IMG/VR virus record: IMGVR_UViG_3300031963_000004
Location: 124,001 to 188,000 of that record
Direction: 5' to 3' (one strand)
From: a virus
Length of the DNA: 64,000 nucleotides
In this document: piece after piece, positions 7,464 through 42,041 of the stretch
Layout of the letters: every line of letters begins with the position of its first letter
How positions within the stretch are numbered: position 1 is the stretch's first letter
The notes under the pieces: generated by a model
Told to the model about the DNA's origin: nothing
Seen by the model: only the letters and a program-made list of their open reading frames with translations
Databases searched by the model: none
Position numbers and translations under genes: made by a program

Positions 7464-7471
7464 TATTTATC
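7464..7471 (-). promoter_or_regulatory. Late-type promoter motif GATAAATA
   Basis: GATAAATA reads on the minus strand 23 bases before the ATG of the 404-residue fibre gene, one mismatch from the T4 late consensus TATAAATA, in a 30-base intergenic gap. A GGAG ribosome site follows before the start codon. Confidence 0.5.
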
Positions 7472-8235: not shown

Positions 8236-8252
8236 AATAATTTATTTATCAT

Positions 8253-11200
8253 TTATTTTGTACCCTGTTGCAGGAACTTAGCTGGGGCAGAATCGCTTAT
8301 TTGTAATGGATCTCCTGCTGTGTCGTTATAAATTTCACTATTCCAGCTTCTATTATAATAGAAATTAAACAACGTGTTACTTGGAGTAATTCCCACCACC
8401 GAAGAATATTTTAGGTGCATCTTGTTTATAGCAGTGCCCTGAATACCTCGTTTTAAGTTGCTTATGGTATTGTTTTGATAGTCAACTTTTGAGTATCTTA
8501 TCTTTTCTCCGTTAACGTTTATAGTGTCACCTAATCTCATAACAACATTGATTTGATCGCCCTCAGAAACTCCGTTTCTAAAGACAAGATAAGCTACACT
8601 ATTATTTGTTAATAGAGTAAAATCACTAGAATTTAATTTAGAAAGAGTGGTTTCATTATAAACTTCGGTTTCTTTGATTGTTTCTAGGTCATATATAATT
8701 CTGACCAATAATCTGTCACTATCGGCTACTACAATATATGTATCTTCTACAATATCAATTAGCTTAGAAACGTCTTTTACATGAATAACGTCTTGTAGTG
8801 GTTCTAAGTTTTCTGTCAACCAGGTTCTATTACTAGAATTTGCTCTGTAAATAAATTGATCTCCGTTTTTATCAACTTCATTCACATAAATCATTTCATT
8901 TGGTGTTGCGCTGGATACCATACTTGTAATCATTATAACGTCATCTGGTTTAATATCAGCCAAAATGCTTAAATAATTACCGTCATTTAATCTAAGTCCG
9001 TCGCTGCCCAATCTTATTCCATTAACTGAAACGTTTAATCTAGTTTTATCACTAATATCGATGGTTTGAGGTATTACATGTGTATCTTCATACTTCCACA
9101 CGAATCCACCTCCGACATATTCTGACAAGAACCTACTAGTAACTGGTCTACTTAAAGAATCATTAAACCACAATGTGATTGGGTACACATCTTTAGTGTA
9201 AGACGTTTCCGTACCTTCATCATCGTATTCAGTAAATGTTTCACTAAATTTCGTTTCTAACTTCATGTAATACGTATTATTGTTTAATTGGTTAGTACCA
9301 GAAATACCATCTATCTGAATTAAATCACCTGTAGTTAATCCAGGATCTTCGTCTGTTTCTGTTGTTATATACAAATATACCACATCCTTGTCAATCGCAA
9401 CAGCTAATAACGGAGTAACTCTCAATGTAGAAATGCTTTCTTGTAAGAAATACTGCTCTCTAGTGTCATTAAATGTAGTGATACTTATTATATCGCCCTC
9501 GTTCAACGTTGGGATAATTGCCAAAGTAGACACAGGTCCTATTGTAATAGTGTAGTCAGTGATGGGTAGTTCTAATCCATTGACTCTAACAATCCTAGGA
9601 ATATAATCATTTTCATTTTCTATTAATTGATAATCTAACGCTAGACCAGTTTGACCTGTACTGTCAAATTCAAAAACTTGTGTTTCTGGCAATGAATAAC
9701 CATAATTTTGTACCGTGCTACCAAATAATACAAAACTTATGAAATTAACGGTTGTATCATAAACTCTATCAAATAACAGCTTTGTTCTGCCGTTATCAGT
9801 AGAAGCTATTACATAATCATTAGTAAATGTTTTCTTTTCTCCGTTTATGTAAACTGCAGGATCAGCAGTCAATAATTCTTCATATTTTATATTGAATACG
9901 ATTTGGCTATGTCCTGTGGATTCATCTATAGTAACTGGTATATCATCTGACGTTGCTCTTACTAATTGATTACCATTACCGAATTCATAAACTTCAACTA
10001 AAATAATTTCTGTTTCTCTAATCTCTTTGTTTAGTGTGATTTTCTTTTGAATCCAATCAACTGAATATGTGTATTCATTATTGTCAGTTGGTGTAACGTT
10101 TGGATGAATCATTTTACTAAGGTTAGATAACGGATCCATTATAGATAATGCTAATTGTGCTGGTGCTTGTGAGAAATTAGAGAAATCAATTTCTACACCA
10201 TTAGGGGATACTTTGTTACCTATAACTTTATATCCATTATGTTGATATACTTCAGGATTCCATGTACTGCCTGATCTTGTAATTACTGTCATTGAGAATT
10301 GATCAGTAATAGCTCCTGGAACCATTTCTTCAGGACCATATCCAGAAGTGAAAGGATCACCTTTAACTTCATAGAATGTATTTGCACCGCCTATTGCAGA
10401 TACATTTTGCCATACTAATCCTTCCCAACTGCGTAGAATTGTAGCATTGTTACCTACTGCTAAGAAATGTTGTCCATCGTGTGTAACACTATTAAGATTC
10501 TGATTCGTTCCTGAGGTAATCTTAGACCATGACATACCATCATAACTAACTAAGATTAATCCATTCTGTCCTACAAACACAAACGTATTAGCAGCATAAC
10601 AACCAGCTAAAATGTTATCTGTTATAGTATCACCTTCTATTGTTCCTGCAAATATATTCTGCATGTTCGTAGAATACAATACTGTTCCGTTATCGCCACC
10701 TAAAACAATCATTTCAGGTCCACCTACTACTGTGTTCAATCCATTATTAGTTGGGTGTGGATATATTGGTGTCCATGCTCTACCATTTTCACTTAATAAT
10801 ACTCTGCCAATAGTTGTTACTTGCGCTGATACTTCTTCAGTTGGATCTTCAATAACATCTAATCCATATCCAACTGCAATAAAGCCAGCATAGAATTCAC
10901 TGTTAATGTAGTCGATATAATTTGCTCTTGCTTCTGTTCTACTTTGGAAGCTATAAACGCTGTCCCAAGCATATGCGTCTGTACTTGCTACAAGTTGATC
11001 ACCTGCTGCCACATAAAAATCATTATGGCTAGCTACATTATAAAGCCCGCCGCTGGGAGCAGTTAATGATGAGCTATCCCATGCTTCACCGGGCTCGTCA
11101 AAGTCAACTTTATCATAAGGTGTGTAACTACCTAAACCTAACCATGACAACCCGTCGTAACTTATAAAGACAGGATTGCTAGGCTTTCTAGTTGTTAATA

Positions 11201-14200
11201 CATAATGTGTTCCAGAATGTATCACGTCGGAAACTTCTAGTACATCAGCACTTATTCTCTTAATTTGCCAAGTAATACCTTCATCGTAACTCAACAATAT
11301 CATAGAATAATCTCTACCGTCTGCTACAGCAAGATACTTTTCATTATCCCATAATACGGATCTAATCTTTATATCTTTTGGATAGAATGGTTGATCTTTT
11401 AGTTGTGTATCTAAAGTATAATTTTCATCAAACTTATTTGAATAATATGTATTATTAGGGTAATCGACACCTGTTAATAATAATGGTAAGTTTTTACCTG
11501 GCATGTTAGTAGTGGGCTGATAAAAACCCACGATTCTGTCTAATGCATTTAATTCTTCTTTGTTACTATCTAAAACTTGCCATTTGTCAAAATCAAACTC
11601 TGTGTCATTGTTACTAACCAAGCACTTGTACAGTCTGTTGTTTAAGCTTACTATACTACTTGTAGTACGTGAGTATCCTGAAGTTAATTGAACAGGCTCA
11701 GGTAAGTACATATAGCTGTTATTATCAAATGGGAACGGGTTATCTTCTAATCTGACGTAACCTGCAGGATTAAACTCATTTAAATAAACAAATGCAGAGG
11801 CGTTTATAAAGATGTTGCCATTTGCTGTAGCTGTAAATGGTTCAGTACCTGCTAATTCATTTGCGGTGTCGGCTCCGATTACGGTCCAGTCTATTAATCC
11901 AACTGTTTTTACATAATAACTCTTATCTTTTACGATACTTCTTGCACTGACAGTTGTTGGCTCAACATCAGCTATTGCTCTATAGTATTTTCCATTAGCT
12001 AAAACAATGTCACCACGTTTGTAACTCTTGTTGCCTTTCCAAACTTGACTAGCAATTACAGGTCTAACCATTGGGGCATCATGATAAACTTTTAGCTGAG
12101 TTTGATTTATAGGTTTCACATAGTATTGCTTAAAGGCACCTACTGCCAACCCAGACAATTCATATAATTCCATTTTGTTAGCCTGTGTATAGACTACCTT
12201 AATTGTTGCATCATTTGCTCCGCTAACACCACCTAAATAAACACCGTCTACAGTAATTTTATCACCTACATTGTAGATTGTGCCTTTGTTAAACACTTCT
12301 ACAAAATACTCATTGTATACTTTGTTGAAAACAAAGTTAGGTCTGTAGAATTTGATTAGAGCATGGCCCTCTTCTATTGCTTTGCCTGGAGTAGATCCAA
12401 AATTAGATGGTGATAAATCTTCAATCCAAATTCTGTTTCCTACCTGATAAATAATTCCCTCGGTCTGAGCAATTAAATCCCATCTCGTATCTCCTAACTC
12501 GGCAATCACATACCATTTGTCGTACTCTAAGTTATTAGGTGCTAAAAATGCTGTGACAACTCCGGTGCCCATCCCTCTTACTACAGGCTTGATTGAATCT
12601 CCTACGTTATATGTTAAGCCTGTTGTCCCTGCCATAAAGTTCCAATTAGTATCGCCTAAAGATAAAATTTTGTATTGGTTACCTATAATTATATCTTTAA
12701 CTTTAACATGCTGAGGGTACATGTATGTAGGTGGAACTACGTAGAAATACAAAGGTAGACCTTTTAATTGTCCTGGTGATAAACTAGAACCGGTATAATC
12801 AATTGATACTGCAACTTCATTTGTGCCTTCTTCAAGTGTTACTTCTTGTATATCAAACACACGATGCTGTACACTTGATAGTGTTGAACCTGAAGCTGAT
12901 ATTGAGGAAGTACTTGACTCATCTCCTGAGGGAGAGAATTCGCTAGCATAAAATTCACCTGATTTCCATTCCGTAACTTTACTTACGTAGCTTGTTCTGT
13001 CAAACTTAAGTTTAGTAGAAATCTCTCTGGTTGGTGTGTTACTTGCAACTGCAACTGCTCTAGCTGTTAACTCTAGTTTATTATCAGTAGAAGAACCAGT
13101 GTCTATTAAGTCAATTCTATGGTTGTCTAGCTGTGCATTAACTGCTGTGCTATATAAAGCGATTATAGATTTAGCTCCAAACACTTCATCTTTCCAAAGT
13201 ACTCTTACGTGATAATATTTTTTATTTGCAAGACCCTTAATTGGGTTACCTTCACCATGCACGAATCTTACTACGTCGCCTGTGTTTAAATCCACACTAT
13301 CAATATTAATTGAGTTAACTAAAAAGTTTACAACAGAACTATTGAACTTAAATGTTTTTGAAGCTTGGATAATTATTTCAGGTGTTGCTGCGTAACCAGC
13401 ACCTGAATCTACAACTTTCACACCTACTACTTTATCGTCTGCCATAATAGGTTCAAGAACCGCTTCACGTAATGGAGCAGGATATCTAGTTGTGTCAATA
13501 TATGCTATAACAGTCGGTACATCAATGTAGTTTCTACCTGTATTAAGGACTACGACCTCAGGCAAATCTATAATAACTTTGCTATTTGGATTATGATCAG
13601 ACGCCACACTGCCTCGTAAACCCCTGCTTACGAATGTGAGTTTTCCTGCATCTCTATCAACACCTGCGTAGCCAATATATTCATTATTAATTTTGACTAC
13701 TCCGTTTACTGGTAATCCATAAGCATTATCAATATAAATTGTTTCACTAACAGGAGTAATATACTTTGTCAATGAACCTATTGTTACAGACTTTTGTCCA
13801 GTTAAAGATAATCCATAATTATCTAACCAATCAAAATAAATTGATCTGTTCCATATTGCGTCAGTTGGTCCAAATTCTCCTACTGCTGTTACAGGGAAGA
13901 AAGTTAGATTAGGAGTAATAAATTTACCTAAATTAAAATCATATTGCGCCGGTAAATCAAAATCTGTAAGTTGACCATCATATGTATCATTTACTGTATA
14001 CTTTATTGCAAACTCTTTCATAACAACATGATAAGGCTTAATCTCTTTGAGATATCCTTGCAAGAAATCTTGATTATCTGAACGATAATTCAAGTCGGCT
14101 TTCAACTCACGTAGTGTATTAGTTACATCTACTAAACTTGTTTTGTTTAACCATGTTAGGTAACAATTTGTTGATGTAGCTTCACTTATAATGTACTCAA

Positions 14201-17200
14201 ATAGGGTAATTAAACTCTTATTTCTATGAATCAACAATTCGTTTGTAAATATTTCTTCAGTCACGGACCTTACAATATATCTTGTTTCTGTGTGAGGGAA
14301 AACGTCAAAACTATCTGTATCATAGAATGTATTTCCGAATCCCAATCCAAGTATCTCATAGTTCCATAATGATTCTTTTATTTGAATGGTGCCCTGCTCA
14401 AGACCAACTCGTACCCAATCACCATTAGTATAAAGATATACCTCACGTTTGCCATCACTGTTGGTTGTTACACCAGCTAACATGTTTTCAAATGGATTCA
14501 ATGTGGCTAAATCATAATACTTTAACACTTCAACATCAGGCTTTGTATTATTATTGTAGCCGTCTGCCCACCAATATACATGCTCCCAATAATCAGGTGT
14601 GTTGAAAAACTCTCCGCTAGTTGTTAAAAAGCCCGGAGCTCCTTTTGGTACTGACTCTTTGTTAGATTCTCCGATAAAGCTTGGTGTTAAAATTTCTGAT
14701 ATAGGATGCTTGATTAAAACACTGTTTACATACTTGCAGTAATTCTCAAGTGCCTTTAATCTATTACTAAAGAAACTTTGTCTTGGTCTTACTTTAATTC
14801 CTTGCTGTAATAGCTTTGGAAGATGTATGTCAGGGACTAAATTACCTCTCTCGTCTATACCAGATAAGCTATCAAGTAGTTTATCATATAAACTCTCTGG
14901 CATTTCAAATGCAGTATACGCACTAGGTACTCCTGGTAAGAAATCATTAGGATTACCATCTTTGATTAATTTAAATTCATTATAAGAATCATCTTTTTTG
15001 ATTTTATCTGTGAATCCAATATGCAATCCCGTAGACTTACCTTTAATAGAATCTATAGCATTAAATAACCCATACACATTGTTTTGTAGTGCGGCAAAAT
15101 AACCTATACCTGAACTTTGTGGATCAGTAATATATTGTTCTAATATTGAATCAGGTAATGTTTTATCGCTACTCAAAATATTTGTACTACGTACCCAATA
15201 ATAATATTTGTTTGTCAATGCACCCGAGTTGTCAACATTATACAATGAAGTATAATATTCTATATTATATGGGGTACCTGGTCCTTGATAATTTACAGGC
15301 AACACATTGCTTTCTATCCACGTGTAAATTGTGACTGTACTGCCAGGGAATATTTTACCCCAGTTCTGTGCATTATAAAGTACATCTTCTTGATGGTAAT
15401 TTAAAAACTTTGTTGTCGAAGTGTCAAACCATATTTTACCTACAAATGCATCTCCCCAAACTAAATTACCAGTTGTTAATTGAGAGTTATATCCTGCAGG
15501 ATCTTGACTACTGATATAATCAATATTTTCAGTTACGATTCCTAACAATTTACCTTGTAGAGGGTCTATATAATCCAAAGACTCAATTCTTTCATTGTTT
15601 TCGGCATTGAATATTTGAATGTTTTGTAATCTATTAACATCAATAACATCATTAGATTTTCTAAGCACATGCCAGTTTCTTAAGTTTTGTTTGTTTTCAT
15701 AAAATACTATTCTACCATTATCAACACCTGGTTTATAATCAGGACATCCAATGATTAGATTATAATCTTTAAATTCAATAACCTTACCGTAATGCGGGTT
15801 AGCACCAATATCTAATGTTGTATCATTTGCAGCCTGTGAGTAAACAAATTTACCTAATTTGTCTGCGCTTTCATTATGATTAGCCAAATAGTCATAGATA
15901 TAAACTGAGCCGGCTGACCCCAATTCATCAACAAATTTCGTATAGTTGTTGTCAAATATAGTGTCATTAGTTGTGTCTAGATCATCTGTAAAATCGAACG
16001 TGGTTAATGATTTTCTTGTACTAGTTGGTGCTCCAACAGCAAAAGAATTATATTCATTAAACTTGATTGAGAAACCAAATTGTGATGCACCCTCTACGTT
16101 CTCAGGATCAGAGATTCTTTGACTTTCTTGATATTCAAGTATACCAATTTGTTGTAGTGTTGTAGAATTTAGTGCTTGAATTGTTAATTTTTCTTCTATA
16201 GGACCTAAGTTAGGGTCAACTAATCCTATAACAAGTTTATTATCTACTACTCTTGCATAAACATTAGTTATGTTAGCATCATTAATAGCATTTACTGCAC
16301 CTAGTAGATTAGTGGGTAATGTAACTTGATATCCGTTTATTAATATTTTACTTGAGCTAGCAAGTGAATAGTTATTAGTAGCCTGTATTATTCCGTATTT
16401 TTTACCATAGTTAGTATAGCGTACTACTAAGCCTTCTAAATTATTTTCACTTACAAAGAATGGTGCACCAACTAGTAATTCAGATCCATGTCTATTTGTG
16501 TCTAATGCATGACCAAAAGCGTTACCAGGACGAATTTCTGCTAGATTAGTTAATTGAAATTCTTGTGTCTTGAATAAATCAGGATATGATATTTCAATTA
16601 CGTCTCCCGCTTTAAGATCATACAAGAATTGTAGTCCAGCTACTGTAATTTGATATTTTGTATTTTCAATCAGCTTACCATTAACAAAAACATCTAGATA
16701 ATGATCTGTTGTTGGAGCCGAAACTGATAGATTATAATAAACCTCGGTATCCTCAACATAATCACGCTTAACATCAATCTTTTCAATAACTCTGTTTAAA
16801 ACAGCAGCCATACCCACGTTTACTATTTGATTGGGTGATGTACCATAATTCTTTAATGGCGCGCCGATAAACAATTTACTACCGTTGTAGTTTGTAGAAA
16901 GAGTAATCTTAGAAAAGTCCTGTAAGTCTCCGCCTAAGTTATAAGTTTTCACAAACTCATAGGTTTGAGCAGCAGTCTTTTTATATGTTCTTACAAAATT
17001 ACCTGATACTGTGTGAGAAGATGCATATAGCCAATTAGCATCACCCGATAATGCAATTGAATCTCCTACTCGCTGAGAATTAATTGTTATTGCAGGTTTT
17101 TCAACATAATTACCTGTTCGTGTTCGTTTAATTTGATATACATAAATTGTGCTATTTGTTCCTGGTTTAGTCACAATCATAGTATCCTGAGCGATAGCTA

Positions 17201-20200
17201 TTTGTGTACCGAATCCGGCTCCAATGGTCACGCCTAAAAATTTATCTATAACTTCATTGGCTCTGTATTTTGATTTTTCAAAATCATCTGGTTGATATCT
17301 ATAAATTTTACCTTGTGCTGCGTCGGATACAAAATATCCCAATTTAGAGTGATGCGCTATTGCTGATCCAAATGTTCCTGTACTATTTGGTTTTACAATG
17401 TCTTGCTTTATATAATTTATATTTTTTTGATAAACTGCCCAAGTACCATCGGTATCTTCATCTACCCAAACTTTTGCTTTACTAAAGCCACTGTTAATTA
17501 ACTGTAAATTGTTAATGCTGCTTGGGGTAGATACACGTTGATTTTGAAACTTAGCAACAATACCTTCACCTACAATACTTAACACATTGTTAGGCAAAGT
17601 AACTTCAATTACAATAGTATCTAAGGTTGTAACGTTTTTAACTTCATAGTAACCATCAACTCTATAATCAAATTTCAATAAAATGAAATGATTACCTAAA
17701 ACTAAGTTGTGTTGATTTTCAAACCTTAATGTGATTGTTCCGTCTAGATTATTGACAGCTTCAACTACTTTTACTGTAGAATTCTTTTCGCTAATTGAAA
17801 TTGCAGTGTTTACTAACCAGTCATCTTTTTCATCTGCAACCCAAATATAATCATCCATATTAACATCATTTGCTGTTATTGGATTATTTTTTAATGACGA
17901 TATACTGTATCCTGTAACTCTTACATCATCAAAATGCACATAGCCTGCCGATGGTAACTTCTCAATATAATTTGCTTTTATGACAGGTGCGATTTTGTTC
18001 TCACTGAATGGTCTTCCATAATTTATGACAGAATTTAAAGGTATTGACTGCATTACGTTAGGTATAATCATTTTGTCAACGATTCCAACGATTGCAGGAT
18101 TACCTGTTAATTTTGTCTCATCAAATATAAATTCTACAAAGTTTTCATTTTCAACGCCGCCAAATTCGCTAACTTTTAAAGCCCAGTTTTCGTAAACATC
18201 ATAGCTTATTTTACCGGTAGTAAGTGTGATATTTTGAACTGCATCTGCTATTAATCTTGTGCCTTTTTCAGAAATAATGTTCTTATAAACATTAACTTGT
18301 GAGATATCATCTAAGTTACTTGCATTTAAATAATCTCTTGGTCTATAACCAATTAAACCAAACGCTAATAAGTTGGCATCACTTTCTAAATTAGTATTTG
18401 TAGTGTCGTAATATAGTTCACTTTCCAAACTGCGATTACTTGCGTTAGGTAATAAACCTTTTTGAATTTTTTCGTAATCTGTTTTAATCCACTTGGTTTG
18501 ATTAAAGGTTGCTTCGGCAGCTATTCTATCCGCTGCCATCCAATAACTGTTTTTATAGTAAACTATTTCACCCTTAATATATCTCTGATTAGATTGCCAA
18601 TCTTTAATGTTATCTTGATTTAATATAAATCCGTAGGTATCAAGCGTGCCTTTCCACTCAGCAGTTTTTGTACCCTTCATTAATATTCTATGCTGTCTCA
18701 ATCCTGTTATTGGATTATAGATAGTATCATTAAACTGAGTATAATTATCAAACACGATTCCATGCTCAATGGTACTCATATTAGCAGTGAAATAGGATAC
18801 AGAATCTCCTGTATTAAGAGTTTGTAATGTAAATTCTGTGCCTTTTCTAGATATAACTAAATCTTTAAGTTGTATAGGAACAAGGTTTTGATTCAGTGCA
18901 TAGTTTTGTTGGAATAGTGTAAGTGGTTGAACTATAGCATTTTCTTTATCAATGACTAAACCATTTGCACTTGGGTTGATATTAATTGTACTGCCTGCTT
19001 CCCATCCAGTTAAATTCCAATATATTAATTCGGCAATCATTTGCTGCCAATTAATTTCTATACCTTCTTCAATGTTCGTAAACTTCATACCCTGATCTTC
19101 AAGGTATCTGCCATAGTTAATAATAAATTCTGATAATGCTTCTAATGAAACGAACTCACTTCCATAAGGAACAATTATTTCATTTTTATAAAAGTTTTCC
19201 GAAACATATATTGTTGTTTCAAGTACAGTTATATTCTTATATCTACCATTGTAATTAGGCGTGTATTGTACGAAGTAAGACTTGTTTTGGCTATTACCGT
19301 ATACTTTGAATCCTTTATTAGTCTTTTGAACAATCACGCTACTATAAATTACTCTGTCATACGGTTCATTTTCGTATAACATCAAAGCAAAGCTACCATC
19401 TGGTATTAATAATGAATTGCTTTTTGAGCCAGCAGAACTTTTTTCTAAGTAAAATTTTAGTAAATCTTTATCACTAAAACCAGCCATGCGATATACTAAT
19501 CTAACATCTAAATTATTTAAAAGCTCTTTAAATGTTGCGTTTCCGTTTAGACCAAAGCTTTGAACATAATCTACAATCCAATTTATATATCCATGCTGTG
19601 CTTTTCCAGAACCATAATCTACGAAACTCGTTGTTATTCTGCTTCTGTCGTTAATTAACCACTGATTAAATTCAGCATTTTTATTGTATGCATCTAAATT
19701 TTGGGTTAGAGCAAAAAATTTAGCTGGTCTAGCTATGGCTAATATTTTAATTAAATCAAATGGATAGGTACTGCTTTTACAATATGAAAATTCTTGCGGA
19801 CCATAATCACCTGCATTCCAACCTCTGTCATATGTAGGTTGGTCTGTTCCAATAGTTAGAAAATCTAATGGATTTCTTAAATTACCTCTACTATCAACTG
19901 GAATGATTTTACTTAAACCTGGTCTCTTTCTTGTTGGTATAGTATAACTGTCACCGTCATTGTAGACGACTCCATTTTCTAAATCTTCCCATAAAATCTT
20001 GTTATCGTATGTATATGGTGCTGCACCATATCGTTCGTCCCACCATGATGGTTTTGAAACGAAGCCTAACATTTCCCATGGGGATTTGTGCGGAGTTGTA
20101 GTATCATATAGATGTAGATATATACCTCTCCAATTTCCTTGCTTAAACCCTTCACCGTCTAATTTGAACTTACACTGATCAAAATTATAGGTAAATTGAT

Positions 20201-23200
20201 TGTCTGGCAAGAAATATTGAGTTTTATAATCCACTCTGTGTTGACCTATCCAGTTTAAGAAATATGTCGTATATAAATTTTTTGTAAATTCATATGTAAA
20301 ATCAGTTTTTCTAAAATAACCGGATAGAACATCATCGTTGGATACAAAAGTGTTTACATTTAACTTAACATTATTATAAACTCTGCATTCAAATTCAAAT
20401 AATACTCTGTCTCTAAAATCTAATAAAGTACCTTCTTTTGATACTTTACCATATATTCTAGTATATGAGCCATCATGACCTTGTATGAAGTATGCAGGGA
20501 AAACGTATGTATCATCGTAAACCACTTTTGGTTCGAATAAAGGATATAAACCTAACTTGGTTGGAGTATTTGGTACGAAGCTACCATAAGTTTGATTATA
20601 CTCTTTTATTGTAATCTTATCACCAGGTTCTAAATCTAATGTAATAATAACTTTTGGTTCGTCTTGGCTAATTGTATAATCACGATTTCTTAATAGCTGC
20701 GTTATTCGTGTCTCACTCTCTGTTTCTTTAGTTAGGTATATCAAAATTCCATCATAGCTTGCTTTACTAAAATCGTAAATCTTGCTTAATGGAAAGAAAC
20801 TTGTATCTATAAATGCGTTGAATGCGTAGGTATTTGCAGCGAAAGGTGCTCTGCTAGGTATCATGTCACTCCAAAAGAATGAAGTGTTTTGATCCTTATA
20901 GCTTGCGATTTGTTGTAGTGCTAAATCTAATAAATCAGATGCACTCTCTCCGCTATATTCTACTGTTTCAATAATACTTGTAATTAATAATTTAAAATTA
21001 ACATATTCATTTGCACTATAAGTTAATGAATCAAATAAATTAAAATTTTTGTTTCTTAGACATGCCGCAGCATAAATTAATGGGGCACTGTTTTGAATAA
21101 TTTTATCACCATACGTGATTAAATTACCCGCATCTCTGTAATTGTTTGATCCAAAAACTTGTCCTGTCAGTTGTTGACTATTAACAAAAATAGTTTGATA
21201 GTGATTTCTTATATCACCTAAACTTAATGACGCTATCGGTGTGTTAAATGGGTTGCTGCTTAAGTTAATAGGGATAGTATAGTATGCCCCCTCACCCAAT
21301 GGTCCCTCACTGTGTATAAGTACCTCAACAGGGGACTCAGTTACAGGAGGATTTAGTAGTGTAACAATTGTTTCTTTATCAGTTTTAGTAACTGTGTACT
21401 GATCACTGGTTAATATATTTTCATTTACACTGACCTTAATGACTGGCCATGGGCTATCGTTCTGATCTATAGCGACTGCATTACATGTAAATGAATTTTG
21501 TCTTAGTATAGGATTATATGTAAAATTATATGCTTGATACTGAAAGCTTTCACCAACTGTTTTTACCCAACCCAATTCTCTCGTAAATTCATATCTATCC
21601 GTATAGCGATGAGGATAACCTATGCTAACTTTTTCTGTTACAGGTCCTGTCATTAAAGAATATTTGAATACATCTTCATTCAATGATATTCTAAAACTGA
21701 TATCTCCAATATTGGCTACTGAACTGTATGCTAATGGAAACCCTAATACTGGGTCATTTTCGCCCACACCAGGTTTAAATTCAAACAACGTGCAACCTAT
21801 AAAATTACTGCCTGGATAAAAATCTTTATCGGCTAAACTTATATTGTTTTTATCAAAAATATCAAATAATGGTGGTTGATTTACATATGTTTTTTGTTGT
21901 GCTTGATTCCAATATCCTTTATCAAAATAAAAACTCTTTCCACTGTTTGCTGTCCCAAAGTTAACATAAACTTGATCTAGGTCTTGTATGTCGCCATCTG
22001 CTGCCTTTGTAAGAACAATGGTTGGTTCTTGTGTTTCGTTTATTGATGCAAAGTTAATAATGAAAATTTTATTTCTTACATTTGGATCACTGTCGTTTGC
22101 AAAAATAACTCTACTACCTTGAATAGCTTTATACTGATTCCCATCAGGATAATATTCTGTTCTGCCAACTACCCCTATAGTTGGATTACTATTCATTACG
22201 TCAGTTGTAGTATTATCGATAAAGTCTACGTAGCCCTTACCAATGGTTCCTGAATCAAATAATTTTAGCTCAGGATAAAATTCTAAGATAGGTCTATTTG
22301 CTCTGTTTTCTCTATTATTAAGTGCGGCTAAAACTACATCACCCGAAGTGTATTCTGCTGTTGCCTTAAGAACATCTATATGAAACCAACGATTGCTGCG
22401 ACTCCATGCATTTTTATTGATTGCGCTACGATTAATTGTAATATAATCTTTTTGTGCTGGCATTGAAGTTCTGCCACCGTATCTTAGTGTATCGAATCCT
22501 TCATTATCATAGATTGTGTAAATTAGTTGCCCAAATGGTTCTACAATATTTAAATCTTCTGCTTTAATTAATTTTATACTTGTCCCTACTCCTTCAACAT
22601 AATAACTACCTGTTTTATATGGAGCTGGAATAATATTACCAACAAATTTAACTTTTAACCCGTTTGTAAATTGTACACCATTAGGACCTGTATAATTTTT
22701 CTTCCCTAATACATCAGTTTCAATATTAATAGCATTGTTAACTTTGGCATCTAGTAATTTAATTGTTCCTACTTTATTAGGTGTGCTTTCATCTTGATAA
22801 TACAGAGTATCTAATGGGGCAGTTATAATAGGTATTTTTGCTATTTCACCTACAGGCAATCTGACAAACTCTTGACTAACGTATTTTCTCCCGTTCGTTG
22901 CTATAATCTTTTCTGCTATAGGAAGTTCACCATCTTCATCTACGCTTATTATAAAATCATTGTCTAGTTGTAAAAATCTAATTTTATAATAATTATTATT
23001 TGGAATAGTTTTTGGAGCATCATCAAACTCTTTTTCTTCTAGTGAATAGAGATCGTACGGAGTCGGTAGTTCAACTGATTGACCTGGTTTGTAATTTAAA
23101 AATATAACTCTTTTTTCACGGATTTGATTAATACCGTCAATTAATCCCTTAGGATACTTAGATAAAACTTCACTTAACTTTTTACCATGTAATTCACTTA

Positions 23201-23993
23201 TCGGTGTATCAGAAATTAAGTCAACATAATTTTCACCAGAAAAAATCCACTCATCCTGATCAGATGCTTGTGGCACAGTGAATTCGATTATACCGGCATT
23301 TGCACCATTATTTTCAACACCATAAATTTCTCTAGATGTTACATTAGGTCTAATAGGATTTTTACCATTTATACCAGGATCAGTCTGTATCCAAAAGTTA
23401 CTATTTTGATTTACTATAAACTTGTATGTGCCGCCACGAACTAATTTTAGTGTAGGATTACTTTGAGGTATTCTTTTAAAATTTTCTCTTACGGCATAAA
23501 CTGATGAATCTGATATGATTGTAAAGTCGGCTTCACTGTTTACTGTTTCTGTTGTGACTGGTACCTGATCAGGACCGTCAGGTAACCAATAATACTGACT
23601 AAAATTTACAACCTTATCTAAGTCTACAAAACTATCCCAACTATAAAATTCATTTCTAAATAATAAAGAATGGTTATCAGTAATACCATTTTGTGTTTTG
23701 ATAGCATCAATTAATCCAGGGTAGCTTATAAAATCTTTTGCTACAGAAGTCTCTGGTTTAGTAAAGACAACTCCGGGTTCTAATTGATAATTCTGTCTTG
23801 TTGAATTAGGTTCTTTAACATATACGGCATTGGGATCAATACCATATTCAAACTTTCTTCCAATATATCCTTCGACACGTTGTGTGTTAGGTGTCTGAAC
23901 CAATTGGTCTAATGTCGCGCCTAAAAATTCTTCATTAGGCTTGGTTCTAAAAATCTCAGGAAGAAAATCTAAAGTTCTTACTTTATTAACCAT
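8253..23993 (-). CDS. Giant baseplate/tail structural protein of 5246 residues with beta-propeller regions
   Basis: One uninterrupted 15.7-kb frame. The N-terminus (VRTLDFLPEIFRTKPNEEF) and a block with ITINRSAINKNAWSRSNRW are of the type found in the largest virion protein of marine T4-like phages, encoded right after gp6, where T4 has gp7. Regions visible: residues ~2200-2770 with repeated FG..VGAP motifs (FGHALD...LLVGAPF, FGFSIKF...AVGAP, IGCPDY), an integrin/FG-GAP-like propeller; ~4205-4560 with repeated SYDG..W and VGxNGxIL blades, a BNR/YCF48-like propeller. CBM5/12-like W..Y..G..V...Y.A modules lie near 1795 and 3980. Three copies of a GDT.W....G repeat lie near 3775, 3830 and 4030, and two VN.E.I.Y...RG..G repeats near 3430 and 5160. 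There is no signal peptide or membrane segment. Likely a wedge or peripheral baseplate component with surface-binding modules. Confidence 0.85.
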   Translation of the reverse strand: MVNKVRTLDFLPEIFRTKPNEEFLGATLDQLVQTPNTQRVEGYIGRKFEYGIDPNAVYVKEPNSTRQNYQLEPGVVFTKPETSVAKDFISYPGLIDAIKTQNGITDNHSLLFRNEFYSWDSFVDLDKVVNFSQYYWLPDGPDQVPVTTETVNSEADFTIISDSSVYAVRENFKRIPQSNPTLKLVRGGTYKFIVNQNSNFWIQTDPGINGKNPIRPNVTSREIYGVENNGANAGIIEFTVPQASDQDEWIFSGENYVDLISDTPISELHGKKLSEVLSKYPKGLIDGINQIREKRVIFLNYKPGQSVELPTPYDLYSLEEKEFDDAPKTIPNNNYYKIRFLQLDNDFIISVDEDGELPIAEKIIATNGRKYVSQEFVRLPVGEIAKIPIITAPLDTLYYQDESTPNKVGTIKLLDAKVNNAINIETDVLGKKNYTGPNGVQFTNGLKVKFVGNIIPAPYKTGSYYVEGVGTSIKLIKAEDLNIVEPFGQLIYTIYDNEGFDTLRYGGRTSMPAQKDYITINRSAINKNAWSRSNRWFHIDVLKATAEYTSGDVVLAALNNRENRANRPILEFYPELKLFDSGTIGKGYVDFIDNTTTDVMNSNPTIGVVGRTEYYPDGNQYKAIQGSRVIFANDSDPNVRNKIFIINFASINETQEPTIVLTKAADGDIQDLDQVYVNFGTANSGKSFYFDKGYWNQAQQKTYVNQPPLFDIFDKNNISLADKDFYPGSNFIGCTLFEFKPGVGENDPVLGFPLAYSSVANIGDISFRISLNEDVFKYSLMTGPVTEKVSIGYPHRYTDRYEFTRELGWVKTVGESFQYQAYNFTYNPILRQNSFTCNAVAIDQNDSPWPVIKVSVNENILTSDQYTVTKTDKETIVTLLNPPVTESPVEVLIHSEGPLGEGAYYTIPINLSSNPFNTPIASLSLGDIRNHYQTIFVNSQQLTGQVFGSNNYRDAGNLITYGDKIIQNSAPLIYAAACLRNKNFNLFDSLTYSANEYVNFKLLITSIIETVEYSGESASDLLDLALQQIASYKDQNTSFFWSDMIPSRAPFAANTYAFNAFIDTSFFPLSKIYDFSKASYDGILIYLTKETESETRITQLLRNRDYTISQDEPKVIITLDLEPGDKITIKEYNQTYGSFVPNTPTKLGLYPLFEPKVVYDDTYVFPAYFIQGHDGSYTRIYGKVSKEGTLLDFRDRVLFEFECRVYNNVKLNVNTFVSNDDVLSGYFRKTDFTYEFTKNLYTTYFLNWIGQHRVDYKTQYFLPDNQFTYNFDQCKFKLDGEGFKQGNWRGIYLHLYDTTTPHKSPWEMLGFVSKPSWWDERYGAAPYTYDNKILWEDLENGVVYNDGDSYTIPTRKRPGLSKIIPVDSRGNLRNPLDFLTIGTDQPTYDRGWNAGDYGPQEFSYCKSSTYPFDLIKILAIARPAKFFALTQNLDAYNKNAEFNQWLINDRSRITTSFVDYGSGKAQHGYINWIVDYVQSFGLNGNATFKELLNNLDVRLVYRMAGFSDKDLLKFYLEKSSAGSKSNSLLIPDGSFALMLYENEPYDRVIYSSVIVQKTNKGFKVYGNSQNKSYFVQYTPNYNGRYKNITVLETTIYVSENFYKNEIIVPYGSEFVSLEALSEFIINYGRYLEDQGMKFTNIEEGIEINWQQMIAELIYWNLTGWEAGSTININPSANGLVIDKENAIVQPLTLFQQNYALNQNLVPIQLKDLVISRKGTEFTLQTLNTGDSVSYFTANMSTIEHGIVFDNYTQFNDTIYNPITGLRQHRILMKGTKTAEWKGTLDTYGFILNQDNIKDWQSNQRYIKGEIVYYKNSYWMAADRIAAEATFNQTKWIKTDYEKIQKGLLPNASNRSLESELYYDTTNTNLESDANLLAFGLIGYRPRDYLNASNLDDISQVNVYKNIISEKGTRLIADAVQNITLTTGKISYDVYENWALKVSEFGGVENENFVEFIFDETKLTGNPAIVGIVDKMIIPNVMQSIPLNSVINYGRPFSENKIAPVIKANYIEKLPSAGYVHFDDVRVTGYSISSLKNNPITANDVNMDDYIWVADEKDDWLVNTAISISEKNSTVKVVEAVNNLDGTITLRFENQHNLVLGNHFILLKFDYRVDGYYEVKNVTTLDTIVIEVTLPNNVLSIVGEGIVAKFQNQRVSTPSSINNLQLINSGFSKAKVWVDEDTDGTWAVYQKNINYIKQDIVKPNSTGTFGSAIAHHSKLGYFVSDAAQGKIYRYQPDDFEKSKYRANEVIDKFLGVTIGAGFGTQIAIAQDTMIVTKPGTNSTIYVYQIKRTRTGNYVEKPAITINSQRVGDSIALSGDANWLYASSHTVSGNFVRTYKKTAAQTYEFVKTYNLGGDLQDFSKITLSTNYNGSKLFIGAPLKNYGTSPNQIVNVGMAAVLNRVIEKIDVKRDYVEDTEVYYNLSVSAPTTDHYLDVFVNGKLIENTKYQITVAGLQFLYDLKAGDVIEISYPDLFKTQEFQLTNLAEIRPGNAFGHALDTNRHGSELLVGAPFFVSENNLEGLVVRYTNYGKKYGIIQATNNYSLASSSKILINGYQVTLPTNLLGAVNAINDANITNVYARVVDNKLVIGLVDPNLGPIEEKLTIQALNSTTLQQIGILEYQESQRISDPENVEGASQFGFSIKFNEYNSFAVGAPTSTRKSLTTFDFTDDLDTTNDTIFDNNYTKFVDELGSAGSVYIYDYLANHNESADKLGKFVYSQAANDTTLDIGANPHYGKVIEFKDYNLIIGCPDYKPGVDNGRIVFYENKQNLRNWHVLRKSNDVIDVNRLQNIQIFNAENNERIESLDYIDPLQGKLLGIVTENIDYISSQDPAGYNSQLTTGNLVWGDAFVGKIWFDTSTTKFLNYHQEDVLYNAQNWGKIFPGSTVTIYTWIESNVLPVNYQGPGTPYNIEYYTSLYNVDNSGALTNKYYYWVRSTNILSSDKTLPDSILEQYITDPQSSGIGYFAALQNNVYGLFNAIDSIKGKSTGLHIGFTDKIKKDDSYNEFKLIKDGNPNDFLPGVPSAYTAFEMPESLYDKLLDSLSGIDERGNLVPDIHLPKLLQQGIKVRPRQSFFSNRLKALENYCKYVNSVLIKHPISEILTPSFIGESNKESVPKGAPGFLTTSGEFFNTPDYWEHVYWWADGYNNNTKPDVEVLKYYDLATLNPFENMLAGVTTNSDGKREVYLYTNGDWVRVGLEQGTIQIKESLWNYEILGLGFGNTFYDTDSFDVFPHTETRYIVRSVTEEIFTNELLIHRNKSLITLFEYIISEATSTNCYLTWLNKTSLVDVTNTLRELKADLNYRSDNQDFLQGYLKEIKPYHVVMKEFAIKYTVNDTYDGQLTDFDLPAQYDFNLGKFITPNLTFFPVTAVGEFGPTDAIWNRSIYFDWLDNYGLSLTGQKSVTIGSLTKYITPVSETIYIDNAYGLPVNGVVKINNEYIGYAGVDRDAGKLTFVSRGLRGSVASDHNPNSKVIIDLPEVVVLNTGRNYIDVPTVIAYIDTTRYPAPLREAVLEPIMADDKVVGVKVVDSGAGYAATPEIIIQASKTFKFNSSVVNFLVNSINIDSVDLNTGDVVRFVHGEGNPIKGLANKKYYHVRVLWKDEVFGAKSIIALYSTAVNAQLDNHRIDLIDTGSSTDNKLELTARAVAVASNTPTREISTKLKFDRTSYVSKVTEWKSGEFYASEFSPSGDESSTSSISASGSTLSSVQHRVFDIQEVTLEEGTNEVAVSIDYTGSSLSPGQLKGLPLYFYVVPPTYMYPQHVKVKDIIIGNQYKILSLGDTNWNFMAGTTGLTYNVGDSIKPVVRGMGTGVVTAFLAPNNLEYDKWYVIAELGDTRWDLIAQTEGIIYQVGNRIWIEDLSPSNFGSTPGKAIEEGHALIKFYRPNFVFNKVYNEYFVEVFNKGTIYNVGDKITVDGVYLGGVSGANDATIKVVYTQANKMELYELSGLAVGAFKQYYVKPINQTQLKVYHDAPMVRPVIASQVWKGNKSYKRGDIVLANGKYYRAIADVEPTTVSARSIVKDKSYYVKTVGLIDWTVIGADTANELAGTEPFTATANGNIFINASAFVYLNEFNPAGYVRLEDNPFPFDNNSYMYLPEPVQLTSGYSRTTSSIVSLNNRLYKCLVSNNDTEFDFDKWQVLDSNKEELNALDRIVGFYQPTTNMPGKNLPLLLTGVDYPNNTYYSNKFDENYTLDTQLKDQPFYPKDIKIRSVLWDNEKYLAVADGRDYSMILLSYDEGITWQIKRISADVLEVSDVIHSGTHYVLTTRKPSNPVFISYDGLSWLGLGSYTPYDKVDFDEPGEAWDSSSLTAPSGGLYNVASHNDFYVAAGDQLVASTDAYAWDSVYSFQSRTEARANYIDYINSEFYAGFIAVGYGLDVIEDPTEEVSAQVTTIGRVLLSENGRAWTPIYPHPTNNGLNTVVGGPEMIVLGGDNGTVLYSTNMQNIFAGTIEGDTITDNILAGCYAANTFVFVGQNGLILVSYDGMSWSKITSGTNQNLNSVTHDGQHFLAVGNNATILRSWEGLVWQNVSAIGGANTFYEVKGDPFTSGYGPEEMVPGAITDQFSMTVITRSGSTWNPEVYQHNGYKVIGNKVSPNGVEIDFSNFSQAPAQLALSIMDPLSNLSKMIHPNVTPTDNNEYTYSVDWIQKKITLNKEIRETEIILVEVYEFGNGNQLVRATSDDIPVTIDESTGHSQIVFNIKYEELLTADPAVYINGEKKTFTNDYVIASTDNGRTKLLFDRVYDTTVNFISFVLFGSTVQNYGYSLPETQVFEFDSTGQTGLALDYQLIENENDYIPRIVRVNGLELPITDYTITIGPVSTLAIIPTLNEGDIISITTFNDTREQYFLQESISTLRVTPLLAVAIDKDVVYLYITTETDEDPGLTTGDLIQIDGISGTNQLNNNTYYMKLETKFSETFTEYDDEGTETSYTKDVYPITLWFNDSLSRPVTSRFLSEYVGGGFVWKYEDTHVIPQTIDISDKTRLNVSVNGIRLGSDGLRLNDGNYLSILADIKPDDVIMITSMVSSATPNEMIYVNEVDKNGDQFIYRANSSNRTWLTENLEPLQDVIHVKDVSKLIDIVEDTYIVVADSDRLLVRIIYDLETIKETEVYNETTLSKLNSSDFTLLTNNSVAYLVFRNGVSEGDQINVVMRLGDTINVNGEKIRYSKVDYQNNTISNLKRGIQGTAINKMHLKYSSVVGITPSNTLFNFYYNRSWNSEIYNDTAGDPLQISDSAPAKFLQQGTK

Positions 23994-38780: not shown

Positions 38781-38823
38781 GATAAATAAGAAGTGAATCC
38801 AAACAGGAGAACTTATGTTTATC
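38781..38823 (+). promoter_or_regulatory. Late promoter GATAAATA inside a hairpin covering the HNH gene start
   Basis: GATAAATAAG (38781-38790) pairs with CTTA (38812-38815) plus TTTATC (38818-38823), a 10-bp stem with a 2-base bulge. The 5' arm contains the late-type motif GATAAATA (38781-38788). The AUG (38815-38817) lies in the 3' arm and AGGAGA (38805-38810) in the loop. Late transcripts starting just after the motif would lose the 5' arm; read-through from gp47/gp46 would keep the start codon folded. Confidence 0.6.
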
Positions 38824-39462
38824 AAAAACGAATCATATATTAGATACTATGAAATAATTGAAAATGCAAATAAAATTTGCCCAAGAACTATAAAAAAGAC
38901 TGAAGCAATGGAAATTAGAGGGTACATTGAAGATCATCACATCATACCTAAATGTTTAGGTGGAAAAGATGTTCTTTCTAACAAAGTATGGTTAACCGCA
39001 GAAGAACATTTCATATGTCATAAACTACTCACAGAAATGACGGTTGACACTGCTAATGGTAAAATGTGGAGTGCATTGTGGCGAATGATGAATAAACAAA
39101 GCAAAAATCAATCACGTGATTATCAAATAGATGCAAAAGAATATGCAATAGCTAGAGAACAAAATGCAAAAAATCATAGCATTAGGATGCAAGGTAGTTT
39201 GAACCCGTTTCATAATAAAAAACATTCTGATTCTACTAAAGAAGTTATGTCTGCTAAGAAAAAAGGTAAATCATACGAAGAAATTTTTGGTGCGACTAAG
39301 GCAAAAGAAATGCGACTCCGCAGAAGTAAAGAATCATTAGGAAAATTAAAAGGTCCTCAACAAAAAATTAAATGTTTGCATTGCGGGTCTGAAGGTGGGT
39401 TAGGGATTATGAAACGGTGGCACGGTGATAGATGTAAAAATTTAAATAACATACTAAAATGA
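38815..39462 (+). CDS. Free-standing HNH homing endonuclease
   Basis: A 215-residue protein with the HNH core DHHIIPKCLGG (HH at 41-42) followed by NKVWLTAEEHFICH (H65, H69), the beta-beta-alpha metal fold. A NUMOD3-like DNA-binding segment NPFHNKKHSDSTKEVM lies at about 130-145. A C-terminal zinc-finger-like set has C187, C190, H203 and C207. The enzyme would cut a specific DNA site and copy its own gene into phages lacking it. It sits between gp46 and a HAD gene, its stop overlaps the next ATG (ATGA), and it has its own late-type promoter. Lysine-rich, A-rich codon use differs somewhat from its neighbours. Confidence 0.87.
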   Translation: MFIKNESYIRYYEIIENANKICPRTIKKTEAMEIRGYIEDHHIIPKCLGGKDVLSNKVWLTAEEHFICHKLLTEMTVDTANGKMWSALWRMMNKQSKNQSRDYQIDAKEYAIAREQNAKNHSIRMQGSLNPFHNKKHSDSTKEVMSAKKKGKSYEEIFGATKAKEMRLRRSKESLGKLKGPQQKIKCLHCGSEGGLGIMKRWHGDRCKNLNNILK

Positions 39463-39964: not shown

Positions 39965-40525
39965 ATGCCATCACCACAGAAAGCTAAAGGATCAGGATTT
40001 GAGCGAGAAATTGCTAAGTATCTCAGTGAAACATACGGAGAGAGCTTTATTCGTGCGCCCGGATCCGGTGCTTATATAGGTGGCAAAAATCAGAATCGCA
40101 CTCAGATATTACATGAGGGCCAGATTCGCAGTTTCAAAGGGGATATTGTTCCCGGAGAAAGTTTTCCAAAATTCAATGCAGAATGTAAGTTCTATAGTGA
40201 CTTTGCATTTCATTTGTTGCTAACAGGTGAACATAAGGTTTTAGATGGTTGGATACAACAATTACTTGATGTAGCTGACCCGGGTGATTGCAACATACTT
40301 TTTATGAAGTTTAATAGAATAGGAAGATATGTAGCAGTGCAATGTCACTTAACATGGATCATTGATAATTTTACTTTTTATGCAAGTAAAAAAGTTGGTG
40401 ATTGGTATATAATAGAATTTGATCATTTTATGGCTCACAATAAAAATTTACTCAAGGCATATTCAGGCAACACAGGCACATCAGACACCAAGTCAAGCAC
40501 TTCATTACTTACAATAGACATTTAA
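39965..40525 (+). CDS. Holliday-junction-resolvase-like PD-(D/E)xK nuclease
   Basis: A 186-residue protein with KAKGSGFEREIAKYLSETY (E13), RAPGSGAYIGG, FKGDIV (D60) and NAECKFY (E73, K75). This is the arrangement of archaeal-Hjc-type resolvases and related PD-(D/E)xK endonucleases: E, then GD, then ExK. In a T4-like setting it may resolve or debranch DNA before packaging, the role gp49 plays in T4 with an unrelated fold; that role is inference. It follows the HAD gene by 20 bases and is the last plus-strand gene before the structured intergenic element. The serine/threonine-rich last 25 residues look disordered. Confidence 0.72.
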   Translation: MPSPQKAKGSGFEREIAKYLSETYGESFIRAPGSGAYIGGKNQNRTQILHEGQIRSFKGDIVPGESFPKFNAECKFYSDFAFHLLLTGEHKVLDGWIQQLLDVADPGDCNILFMKFNRIGRYVAVQCHLTWIIDNFTFYASKKVGDWYIIEFDHFMAHNKNLLKAYSGNTGTSDTKSSTSLLTIDI

Positions 40526-40983
40526 TACAATTCGACGGTCAAGTTGTTGACCCTCCTTGAGGACGTACAGGTAGTGCTGTGCTGACGGATCTGGAGTACG
40601 CCTAAGATTAATCTTAGGGAACACCGACAGGGCAATCGTGTGGAGCGAACCCTGAATGAGTACATAGTTAACTTTGTCTTGCGACTATGTAACATGCGTT
40701 GCTGAGGCGTTATTTATAAGAAATAATAGTCTCACTACAGTCCCAATAAACTTTACAGAGCAACCGGTGGCGATTGACAGCGAAAAGGGCTAGTTAGTCG
40801 GGGAATAGACAACATGGGTGACGGTCATGGCAAGTAACCTTTACCAATGGTAGTGCTGAATAGCACTACCATGGATTCAAATCGGCAATTAGTTAATATA
40901 ATCCTATAATAAGAATAAGTCCGAACAAACGAATGAGCGATAGCGAATGAGTGTGAAGGACTTAGATTAGCGAAGCTAATCTC
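40526..40983. ncRNA. Gene-free element with at least ten stems, candidate structured RNA
   Basis: No convincing coding frame exists here, and base composition is visibly less AT-rich than around it. Perfect stems on the plus strand include GGTCAA/TTGACC (40537-40552), CGTAC/GTACG (40564-40600), CCTAAG/CTTAGG (40601-40618), CAGGG/CCCTG (40628-40654), ACATAGT/ACTATGT (40662-40690), TTATTT/AAATAA (around 40710-40726) and an 11-bp ATGGTAGTGCT/AGCACTACCAT with GAAT loop (40847-40872). TAAGTCC/GGACTTA (40916-40964) and AGATTAGC/GCTAATCT (40964-40982) close it. GGTAGTGCTG occurs at both 40570 and 40849, so AGCACTACC could pair with either copy. Strand is undecided, and no known RNA family (tRNA, tmRNA, RNase P, group I intron) was recognised. 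Confidence 0.45.
40711..40718 (-). promoter_or_regulatory. Late-consensus motif TATAAATA on the minus strand inside the structured element
   Basis: An exact TATAAATA reads leftward and would start a transcript through the left half of the element and then antisense to the resolvase gene. The same bases also form the TTATTT/AAATAA stem, so the match may be incidental. Confidence 0.25.
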
Positions 40984-41214
40984 TTAAAAGAATGGCATCT
41001 GAGATTTTTTTGTGGTTTCTAGGTTTTCTTCAATAATTTCGTTTAATGATTGGAGTTCTTCCGGGCTCATGTTTAATACATCTTCATAGGATACAGCTCC
41101 GCGCATATACCAGGCTATACGTTGTGCATTTTTCTTAATAGCCTTAACGTCTTTCTCCATGCCTTCTATAAGCTTCCCGATACCCTCGGAGTCGAGGTAT
41201 AGAAGCTTTATTCG
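40984..41214 (-). CDS. -1 frameshift extension of gp26 (76 codons)
   Basis: In the -1 frame relative to gp26 an open frame runs from the slippery site at 41220-41214 to TAA at 40986-40984. It adds RIKLLYLDSEGIGKLIEG, then a segment with IKKNAQRIAWYMRGAVSYED and the ending NLETTKKSQMPFF. That ending is of a type I associate with a small protein encoded after gp26 in marine T4-like phages. Independent start at the ATG at 41160 (58 residues) is possible, but the only Shine-Dalgarno-like bases (GAAGG) are one base from it. The fused product would be about 352 residues. This parallels the G/GT tail chaperones encoded beside tape-measure genes, and tape-measure-type genes are indeed adjacent here. 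Confidence 0.65.
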   Translation of the reverse strand, partial: RIKLLYLDSEGIGKLIEGMEKDVKAIKKNAQRIAWYMRGAVSYEDVLNMSPEELQSLNEIIEENLETTKKSQMPFF

Positions 41215-41220
41215 AAAAAA
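41163..41220 (-). other. Programmed -1 frameshift signal: slippery T TTT TTC plus downstream stem
   Basis: In the gp26 frame the codons GAT TTT TTC GAA TAA contain the heptamer T TTT TTC (41220-41214), a canonical X XXY YYZ site two codons before the stop. After an 8-base spacer comes CTTCTATA (41205-41198), which pairs with TATAGAAG (41170-41163). Between them CCTCG-ACTC-CGAGG (41197-41184) forms an inner hairpin; ATACC/GGTAT is an alternative extension. Site, spacer and structure are all within the usual ranges. Confidence 0.68.
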
Positions 41221-42041
41221 TCGCTGATGTTCAACGTGAATGGTTGATCATATTCATGCTTACAATGTGTACATGCAATATGTAATGGTTTAATTTGTGT
41301 GGTTTCTCTTAATTTAATGCTGGTTTCACGAATCATTTCAAAGGTTTTCTTATCGGTATTATTGAGAAAATCTTTAATATAAGCCTTTTCAGATACTACT
41401 GCTTCAGGTGTAGCTATGTATTCTATAACATTAACTAATACATCAATTGTGCTGTCCCCGATTATTTTGAGAATTTCGGTACTTCTAGCCTCACGTTCTG
41501 GGCCTTCTTCCATAGAGTTTAGAGTGATAAATGCTCTTTGAATTTCTAATTGCCTTGCAGTGCTATTAGTAAGTTCTTTGTACATTAATGGTCTAAATTT
41601 AATACGTAAATTATCAATCATTAATGGTCTATCATAATCACCCGGGGCGAAGTTATTAAGTACAAAACTTAAATTTAATCCAAACTTACTATCTTCATTA
41701 CAATTTGGACATGTAGTATCTAAATCCATATCATTACCATTAGTCGCTATTTTAATAGCAACTAATATAGCATCCAAATCAACACTGCTTATAGCCCATG
41801 GGTCTTTAATACTAGGTACACAACTGCGTATTATCTCAGCCACCGCTGATCCATTGTATAATGCATCAGGTGTTTTACTGGTTATCTCATCAATAGCAGT
41901 CATAGGATAAACTGGTAGTTCACCAGTTTCTGTCATAACCAAAACATCAGGACCATATCCTTTCCCTTGAGTTGGTAATTTTAAATAGATTCCTGGTCTG
42001 CGAAAGTATTGCTTAAGTGGGTTATGTTCGATACTGCTCAT
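41208..42041 (-). CDS. 26: Baseplate hub assembly protein gp26
   Basis: A 277-residue homologue of T4 gp26 (208), a hub assembly factor. The start FRRPGIYLKLPTQGKGY and ELPVYPMTAIDEI, then TPDALYNGSAVAEIIRSCVP, form the family signature. CPNC (111-114) and CTHC (257-260) suggest a zinc-ribbon-like pair. AGGAGA precedes the ATG. It ends SDFFE-stop directly at a slippery heptamer that leads into a 76-codon -1 extension. It is divergently transcribed from the tape-measure-type genes, with a shared palindromic late-promoter region between them. Confidence 0.85.
   Translation of the reverse strand: MSSIEHNPLKQYFRRPGIYLKLPTQGKGYGPDVLVMTETGELPVYPMTAIDEITSKTPDALYNGSAVAEIIRSCVPSIKDPWAISSVDLDAILVAIKIATNGNDMDLDTTCPNCNEDSKFGLNLSFVLNNFAPGDYDRPLMIDNLRIKFRPLMYKELTNSTARQLEIQRAFITLNSMEEGPEREARSTEILKIIGDSTIDVLVNVIEYIATPEAVVSEKAYIKDFLNNTDKKTFEMIRETSIKLRETTQIKPLHIACTHCKHEYDQPFTLNISDFFE

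Follow-up and report, generated by a model that had tools for sequence, protein, structure and literature searches.

The stretch of DNA analysed here (the window, 64,000 bases in full) comes from a virus record of 223,151 bases, in which it spans 124001-188000; all coordinates below are positions within the window. The window carries T4-type genes for a Gp20-like portal, a baseplate hub, a late sigma factor and SbcC/SbcD-like subunits, the last of which are gp46/gp47 in T4; elsewhere, an open reading frame of 5246 aa occupies 8253-23993 on the minus strand. Our analysis concerns a 458-base gap (40526-40983) between the stop codon of a plus-strand nuclease gene and two minus-strand reading frames. 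The nuclease gene (39965-40525) encodes a PDDEXK_15/RusA-like Holliday junction resolvase, as judged by Pfam and PHROG matches. On the other side of the gap is a conserved 58-aa ORF of unknown function (40984-41160), which is without a Pfam or PHROG match and is found next to the element in nearly all relatives, followed by the convergent gene for a T4-type baseplate hub protein (41208-42041; PF12322, phrog_150). A first-pass annotation, made from the sequence alone, had called the gap gene-free; indeed, it has no ORF of at least 40 aa other than a 57-aa minus-strand frame at 40522-40695. An HNH homing endonuclease gene lies nearby (38815-39462, plus strand).

Within the nuclease gene, at its 3' end, lies the plus-strand motif GACACCAAGTCA (40484-40495), of unknown role, which is present in 70 of 77 relatives and occurs twice in five. 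In the form GACACCANGTCA, the motif represents nearly fixed codons of the resolvase gene; there are one or two per genome in five genomes, and one copy is out of frame, beyond the resolvase stop.

Conservation of the element and its position

Two protein-based scans and one DNA-pattern scan yielded loci L002-L278, which together with L001 make at least 278 loci. A profile of the element's core matches 275 of 278, among the matches listed. The three that it misses are L041, where the sequence ends 78 bases past the hub gene; L046, which has an HNH-like gene (read by eye) at the expected site, with 929 bases left; and L017, which has a different sequence there. Wherever the flanks are on the contig, the element is preceded by the resolvase gene on its own strand and followed, on the opposite strand, by the 58-aa ORF and the hub gene; among the matches listed, this arrangement holds although the DNA-pattern scan was independent of context. 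The 247 full-length copies among these matches, with some contigs counted by more than one scan, comprise 158 distinct sequences, or 85 at 90% non-redundancy. In 77 relatives, a CCUCC motif begins 8-139 nt past the nuclease stop. Several hundred extra intergenic bases, likely insertions, are present at eight loci (L005, L050, L131, L147, L216, L219, L256 and L265), and in the last four of these they lie between the element and the 58-aa ORF.

All six window-family genomes that we searched (223-525 kb, none known to be complete) have one copy, and the possibility of additional copies within the same genome was rejected for these six. In GTDB genomes, at least 117 stretches fit a pattern with 15 fixed positions; none of the 117 listed matches the profile, and blastn searches of INPHARED with three members gave nothing convincing. 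We found no published description of these elements in the literature searched, which did not cover most subscription journals.

Covariation indicates a structured RNA

The plus strand of 40526-40983 has a minimum free energy of -138.3 kcal/mol (z = -4.07), and none of 100 shuffles was as low; for the minus strand, z = -2.69. Counts of G-U versus A-C in the chosen helices (272 versus 37) also point to the plus strand, with the caveat that they are biased in that direction because G-U was counted as paired when the helices were chosen.

The covariation set started from 101 distinct intergenic regions. Four that exceeded 700 bases were set aside, and filtering at 95% identity left 78 sequences; columns in which gaps made up more than half were removed, and pairwise identity over the entire intergenic alignment averaged 0.60. 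The test was run with our own script, which is R-scape-like but is not R-scape, combining a G-test and APC with nulls that replay substitutions on the tree. Under these phylogeny-aware nulls, 26 of 61,776 pairs in the 78 non-redundant sequences reached E ≤ 0.05. Of these, 22 are paired in 90% or more of the sequences and one in 77%, with the remaining three being non-standard: a pair in the direct repeats described below, and columns 127:162 and 128:163, which are crossings of neighbouring true pairs. In 85 sequences, 98.6% of 2549 cells in a central domain are paired and both sides have changed in 22 of 30 pairs; the covariation score is 0.434, versus 0.160 in shuffles, and sliding the domain by one to three columns leaves only 28.5-37.3% paired. 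The cells-paired figure is favoured by the fact that the structure was taken from the same alignment.

The conserved core of ~355 nt (40532-40887), defined by blastn, nhmmer and alignment of relatives, and all parts described here are on the plus strand. The helices listed from the alignment are P1, P3 to P9, P13 and P14, together with a pseudoknot involving the loop of P8. All six pairs of the P1 hairpin (40537-40542:40547-40552) vary, with a minimum paired fraction of 0.97 and three significant pairs. A near-invariant segment, CCUCCUUGAG ... UCUGGAG (40553-40596), is defined by sequence conservation; it includes P3 (40565-40570:40577-40582), likewise in conserved sequence, and a possible CUCC:GGAG stem (40553-40556:40593-40596) that is supported by conserved sequence only and, since there is hardly any variation, is outside the reach of the covariation test. 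The central domain (40622-40769), which rests on the covariation and pairing described above, is closed by P5 (40622-40626:40765-40769) and contains P6 (40628-40632:40650-40654), P7 (40656-40658:40693-40695), P8 (40661-40668:40684-40691) and P9 (40698-40702:40760-40764). The predicted pseudoknot between the P8 loop (40674-40679) and 40807-40812 is supported: all six pairs vary, the minimum paired fraction is 0.96, and two pairs are significant. A second long-range helix is possible (40741-40744:40801-40804; four pairs, two of them variable, minimum paired 0.96), with no pair among those at E ≤ 0.05. Four pairs are significant in the P13 hairpin (40771-40778:40793-40800), which has an inner stem at 40779-40781:40789-40791.

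The 11-bp stem with a GAAT loop that had been described for this gap is P14 (40847-40872), the arms of which are both strongly conserved in sequence. The first-pass annotation also reported two occurrences of GGTAGTGCTG (40570 and 40849) and one of AGCACTACC (40862), correctly, and inferred that a two-state fold was possible. That inference did not survive comparison with relatives: of 85 that are non-redundant, 73 have an exact hairpin copy, but only nine an exact upstream GGTAGTGC. Because the upstream copy is so poorly kept, the two-state GGTAGTGCTG switch is not a feature of the family and we rejected it. Downstream of the core are two 3' stem-loops (40917-40922:40958-40963 and 40964-40971:40975-40982) that come from the fold, with no covariation data. 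Relatives have a hairpin like 40964-40982 at the same place, with varying arms, and it is possible that the 40917-40982 region is a terminator with a weak T run. The RNAalifold structure behind our model R2 lacks P14, and R2 contributes no results.

We conclude that 40532-40983 is very probably a structured non-coding RNA gene read from the plus strand, with its transcription inferred. The earlier suggestion of a candidate new structured RNA is thus upheld: most helices show compensatory changes, the pseudoknot covaries, synteny is fixed, the profile matches are as described above, and Rfam has no match. Stem-breaking substitutions without compensation, which would have refuted the suggestion, were sought in relatives, and the suggestion was not refuted.

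Direct repeats covary as identical bases

Two short direct repeats, xCATGGCA (40825-40832) and xCGGCA (40882-40887), both on the plus strand, flank P14 and lie outside the supported helices. The covariation between 40825 and 40882 takes the form of identical bases (U-U 30, G-G 45, C-C 3; n = 78). The two columns are identical in 78/78 of this first set, but in 129/148 of a wider set with letters in both; some of the exceptions resemble alignment shifts, and others are real. In divergent members, the repeats drift yet match each other, as with GTTGAA, AGTAAT, GATAAT, CTGCATGT and AAGCAG. Across 85 sequences, the longest word shared by the repeats averages 5.18 within a copy, a value reached by 0 of 2000 permutations. 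We know of no catalogued phage RNA in which two repeats covary as identical, rather than complementary, bases, and the pattern calls for a mechanism.

No complementary third column or strand for the repeats was found within the RNA. Several candidates for such a partner were tried and rejected. Exact complements in cis were missing in nine of 14 window-family members tried, and for copies of the 121Q-type element described below, own and swapped complementarity were 7.56 and 7.38, respectively. The variable base of the upstream motif GACACCANGTCA does not track the repeat base.

Comparison with known RNA families

A scan of the 64 kb with Rfam 15 covariance models gave no match at gathering score, and at E ≤ 10 its hits were limited to three short ones, all lying outside the core and far below gathering scores; as the first-pass annotation had it, no family could be recognised for the element. 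There was no match to the family models of GOLLD or ROOL, nor to those of group I and II introns, RNase P and HEARO, all of which are included in Rfam, and ARAGORN found no tRNA or tmRNA genes in the window. GOLLD and ROOL are described as large, ornate, pseudoknotted phage RNAs of unknown function (PMC12286853), and to that extent they are like the window RNA, which is also large, ornate, pseudoknotted, phage-encoded and of unknown function. The window RNA is unlike them in its fixed nuclease/baseplate site, its identical direct repeats and the absence of tRNAs from the window. The likeness to large ornate phage RNAs that had been drawn for this element stands as regards scale, but kinship with the known examples is unsupported.

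A likely counterpart in cultured 121Q/RaK2-like jumbo phages

Large gene-free gaps are present at the hub/nuclease junction in the cultured phages 121Q, XaC1 and Phosso; in Paride, this junction has only small hypothetical ORFs, and in Atu_ph07 it is mostly occupied by a nuclease relative and small ORFs. In Sinorhizobium phage Phosso (L396), the gap (7340-8237, minus strand; family not established) is close to a gene for ribonuclease HI and has a folding z-score of -5.75, based on 20 shuffles. Pseudomonas phage Paride (L398) has a long junction gap, parts of which are repeated on the same strand at two further sites in its genome.

The element in the 121Q gap has blastn matches in 40 phage records, and in the genomes examined it recurs on one strand, with four copies in 121Q and five in XaC1. 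After neighbouring pieces were joined, most of nine other genomes have five copies, with two in K64-1 and three in KP13-7. Several copies adjoin genes other than the nuclease gene. In 49 copies (43 non-redundant), 22 pairs covary at E ≤ 0.05, of which 21 are standard in at least 90% of copies; the last is an identical-base pair (U-U 21, C-C 22; n = 43). Copies within one 121Q genome differ in the covarying base, yet the bases match inside each copy. The 121Q-type element resembles the window RNA in occupying the same junction, with EndoVII replacing the resolvase, and in having a hairpin with a loop pseudoknot, a GUUG:CAAC helix with ACAGnGCAACC, a distance of 14 columns from the pseudoknot strand to repeat 1, and a GC hairpin between identical repeats. 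It differs in sequence, is longer and is found in two to five copies per genome. Because neither nhmmer nor model R1 links the two families, their kinship rests on shared plan and synteny, and we regard the 121Q-type element as a likely counterpart of the window RNA rather than a proven homologue.

Forty copies from eight 121Q-like phages group by genome position (10 label changes, versus at least 20 in 500 shuffles) rather than by genome (29 label changes). The five XaC1 copies form a separate clade; we assigned position labels to them by rotation, starting from the syntenic copy. The five copies in GAP32 are roughly evenly spaced, with gaps of 53-84 kb; for random points, the probability of a smallest gap this large is 0.0046 and that of a largest gap this small is 0.0008. 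These statistics describe one lineage, since related genomes count as one sample. Upstream of 121Q-type copies, TATAAT is present in 29 of 49 (8.5 expected) and TGAAAC in 13 of 49 (versus 1.9). In phage CBB, promoters with a TGAAACG -35 element serve DNA-synthesis genes (PMC5259590). For the window family, exact TATAAT is found just upstream in 0/82, and TATAAAAA with at most one mismatch is found in 32 of 82 (versus 12.8), most commonly at -28 from CCUCC.

The distance from the RNA to the GC-skew minimum is 4.5, 9.3, 10.6, 38 and 39 kb in five window-family genomes. The combined p-value for these distances (0.010) ignores shared ancestry, and the genomes are not independent because they share synteny. 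We rejected a general change in the sign of GC skew at the GAP32 copies: it was found at only one of the five (-14 to +67 per 2 kb), and the mean down-minus-up skew contrast (p = 0.024) comes mainly from that copy.

Possible functions of the RNA

The conservation of repeat identity rather than repeat sequence, together with position-fixed copies, points to action at the RNA's own DNA. In favour of action in cis, we count that the two repeats of any one copy share their covarying base even though it differs among copies of a single genome, and that no complementary third column or strand was found in the RNA. One way in which the RNA might work in cis is for the folded transcript to stay hybridised to its own DNA region as an R-loop, which would prime or mark phage DNA replication; the RNA of one repeat could pair with the template strand at the other, and repeat identity would matter for that reason. 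The models for this mechanism are the T4 oriF/oriG transcripts and the ColE1 RNA II pre-primer. The latter is a structured transcript of several hundred nucleotides that acts at its own DNA; the window RNA is likewise structured and several hundred nucleotides long, but the Rfam searches show no relation and priming is only inferred here. T4 has at least five early origins; R-loop priming there starts from middle promoters, and origins lie near transcription-strand switches. Its minimal origins consist of a promoter and an unwinding element, with oriF R-loops being independent of specific sequence (PMC3016281). The oriF/oriG origins and the RNA elements are alike in being transcribed (by inference, for the RNA elements), in being several per genome, in belonging to the same phage superfamily and in lying near transcription-strand switches. 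They are unlike in that T4 R-loops require no specific sequence and that initiation is only inferred for the RNA elements.

We count in favour of a primer the position-grouped, evenly spaced 121Q-type copies, the excess of TATAAT and TGAAAC upstream of them, the distances to the skew minimum in the window family, and the parallels with T4 R-loop origins (PMC3016281). Counted against it are the single copy per genome and lack of exact TATAAT in the window family, a skew minimum ~40 kb away in two of its five genomes, the unchanged skew sign at four of five GAP32 copies, and a pseudoknotted, loop-conserved core that exceeds what T4 R-loops need. With the skew distances extending from 4.5 to 39 kb and a sign change at only one GAP32 copy, we can put forward only tentatively that a structured transcript acts at its own DNA, perhaps as an R-loop replication primer; transcription, hybrid and priming are all inferred.

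The RNA could instead act in trans as a large ornate RNA, whether an RNP scaffold, a ribozyme or an RNA-only oligomer like GOLLD and ROOL, with copy number and position reflecting dosage. Its size, pseudoknot, strongly conserved loops and status as a single-copy, fixed gene fit such a role, and GOLLD and ROOL are precedents for phage RNAs with complex folds (PMC12286853). The lack of an Rfam match to either and of tRNAs in the window speaks against it, and per-copy repeat identity and position-fixed paralogues would be left unexplained. We narrowly favour a structured transcript acting in cis, perhaps as a primer, over a trans-acting ornate RNA, with each remaining a tentative reading. A sponge or antisense RNA, in which the repeats are two identical seeds for one hypothetical host or phage target (for counter-defence or regulation), would account for a pair of identical segments that lie clear of the supported helices, and the target could vary with the host; we consider it improbable, given that the covarying base varies between the copies of a single 121Q genome while matching within each copy, and that the elaborate core would be superfluous.

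The position of the CCUCC motif 8-139 nt after the nuclease stop and the presence of 3' stem-loops would suit a structured 3' UTR or terminator region acting only on the nuclease mRNA. The 121Q-type copies that adjoin other genes, with promoter-like sequence upstream, and a 350-nt pseudoknotted core that a terminator would not need, make this quite improbable. Identical direct repeats in cis around a hairpin might also serve template switching by a polymerase, for which DRT2-like reverse transcription is the comparison; we judge this very unlikely, with no match to RVT_1 (PF00078) in the eight phage records searched, a result by which we ruled out a reverse transcriptase there. An equally slim prospect is that the element functions as DNA, as direct repeats beside a palindrome at fixed positions might suggest, since that would not fit the many double-sided changes, the pseudoknot and the preference for G-U on one strand.

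Returning to the primer, its most general form would be that large phages of the T4 superfamily have replication origins defined by a structured pre-primer RNA, one per genome in the window lineage and as many as five, at even spacing and fixed positions, in 121Q/RaK2-like phages, with identical repeats around a hairpin annealing the RNA to its DNA. We regard this extended proposal as doubtful. Independently of function, which is unknown, the window RNA is, on comparative sequence evidence, a conserved, pseudoknotted RNA gene that is absent from Rfam 15 and that keeps its place as stably as the neighbouring genes. Because cultured phages that infect E. coli and its relatives have a likely counterpart built to the same plan, the function of the RNA is directly testable. 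If the RNA marks replication origins, the choice of origin in jumbo phages would become testable as well.
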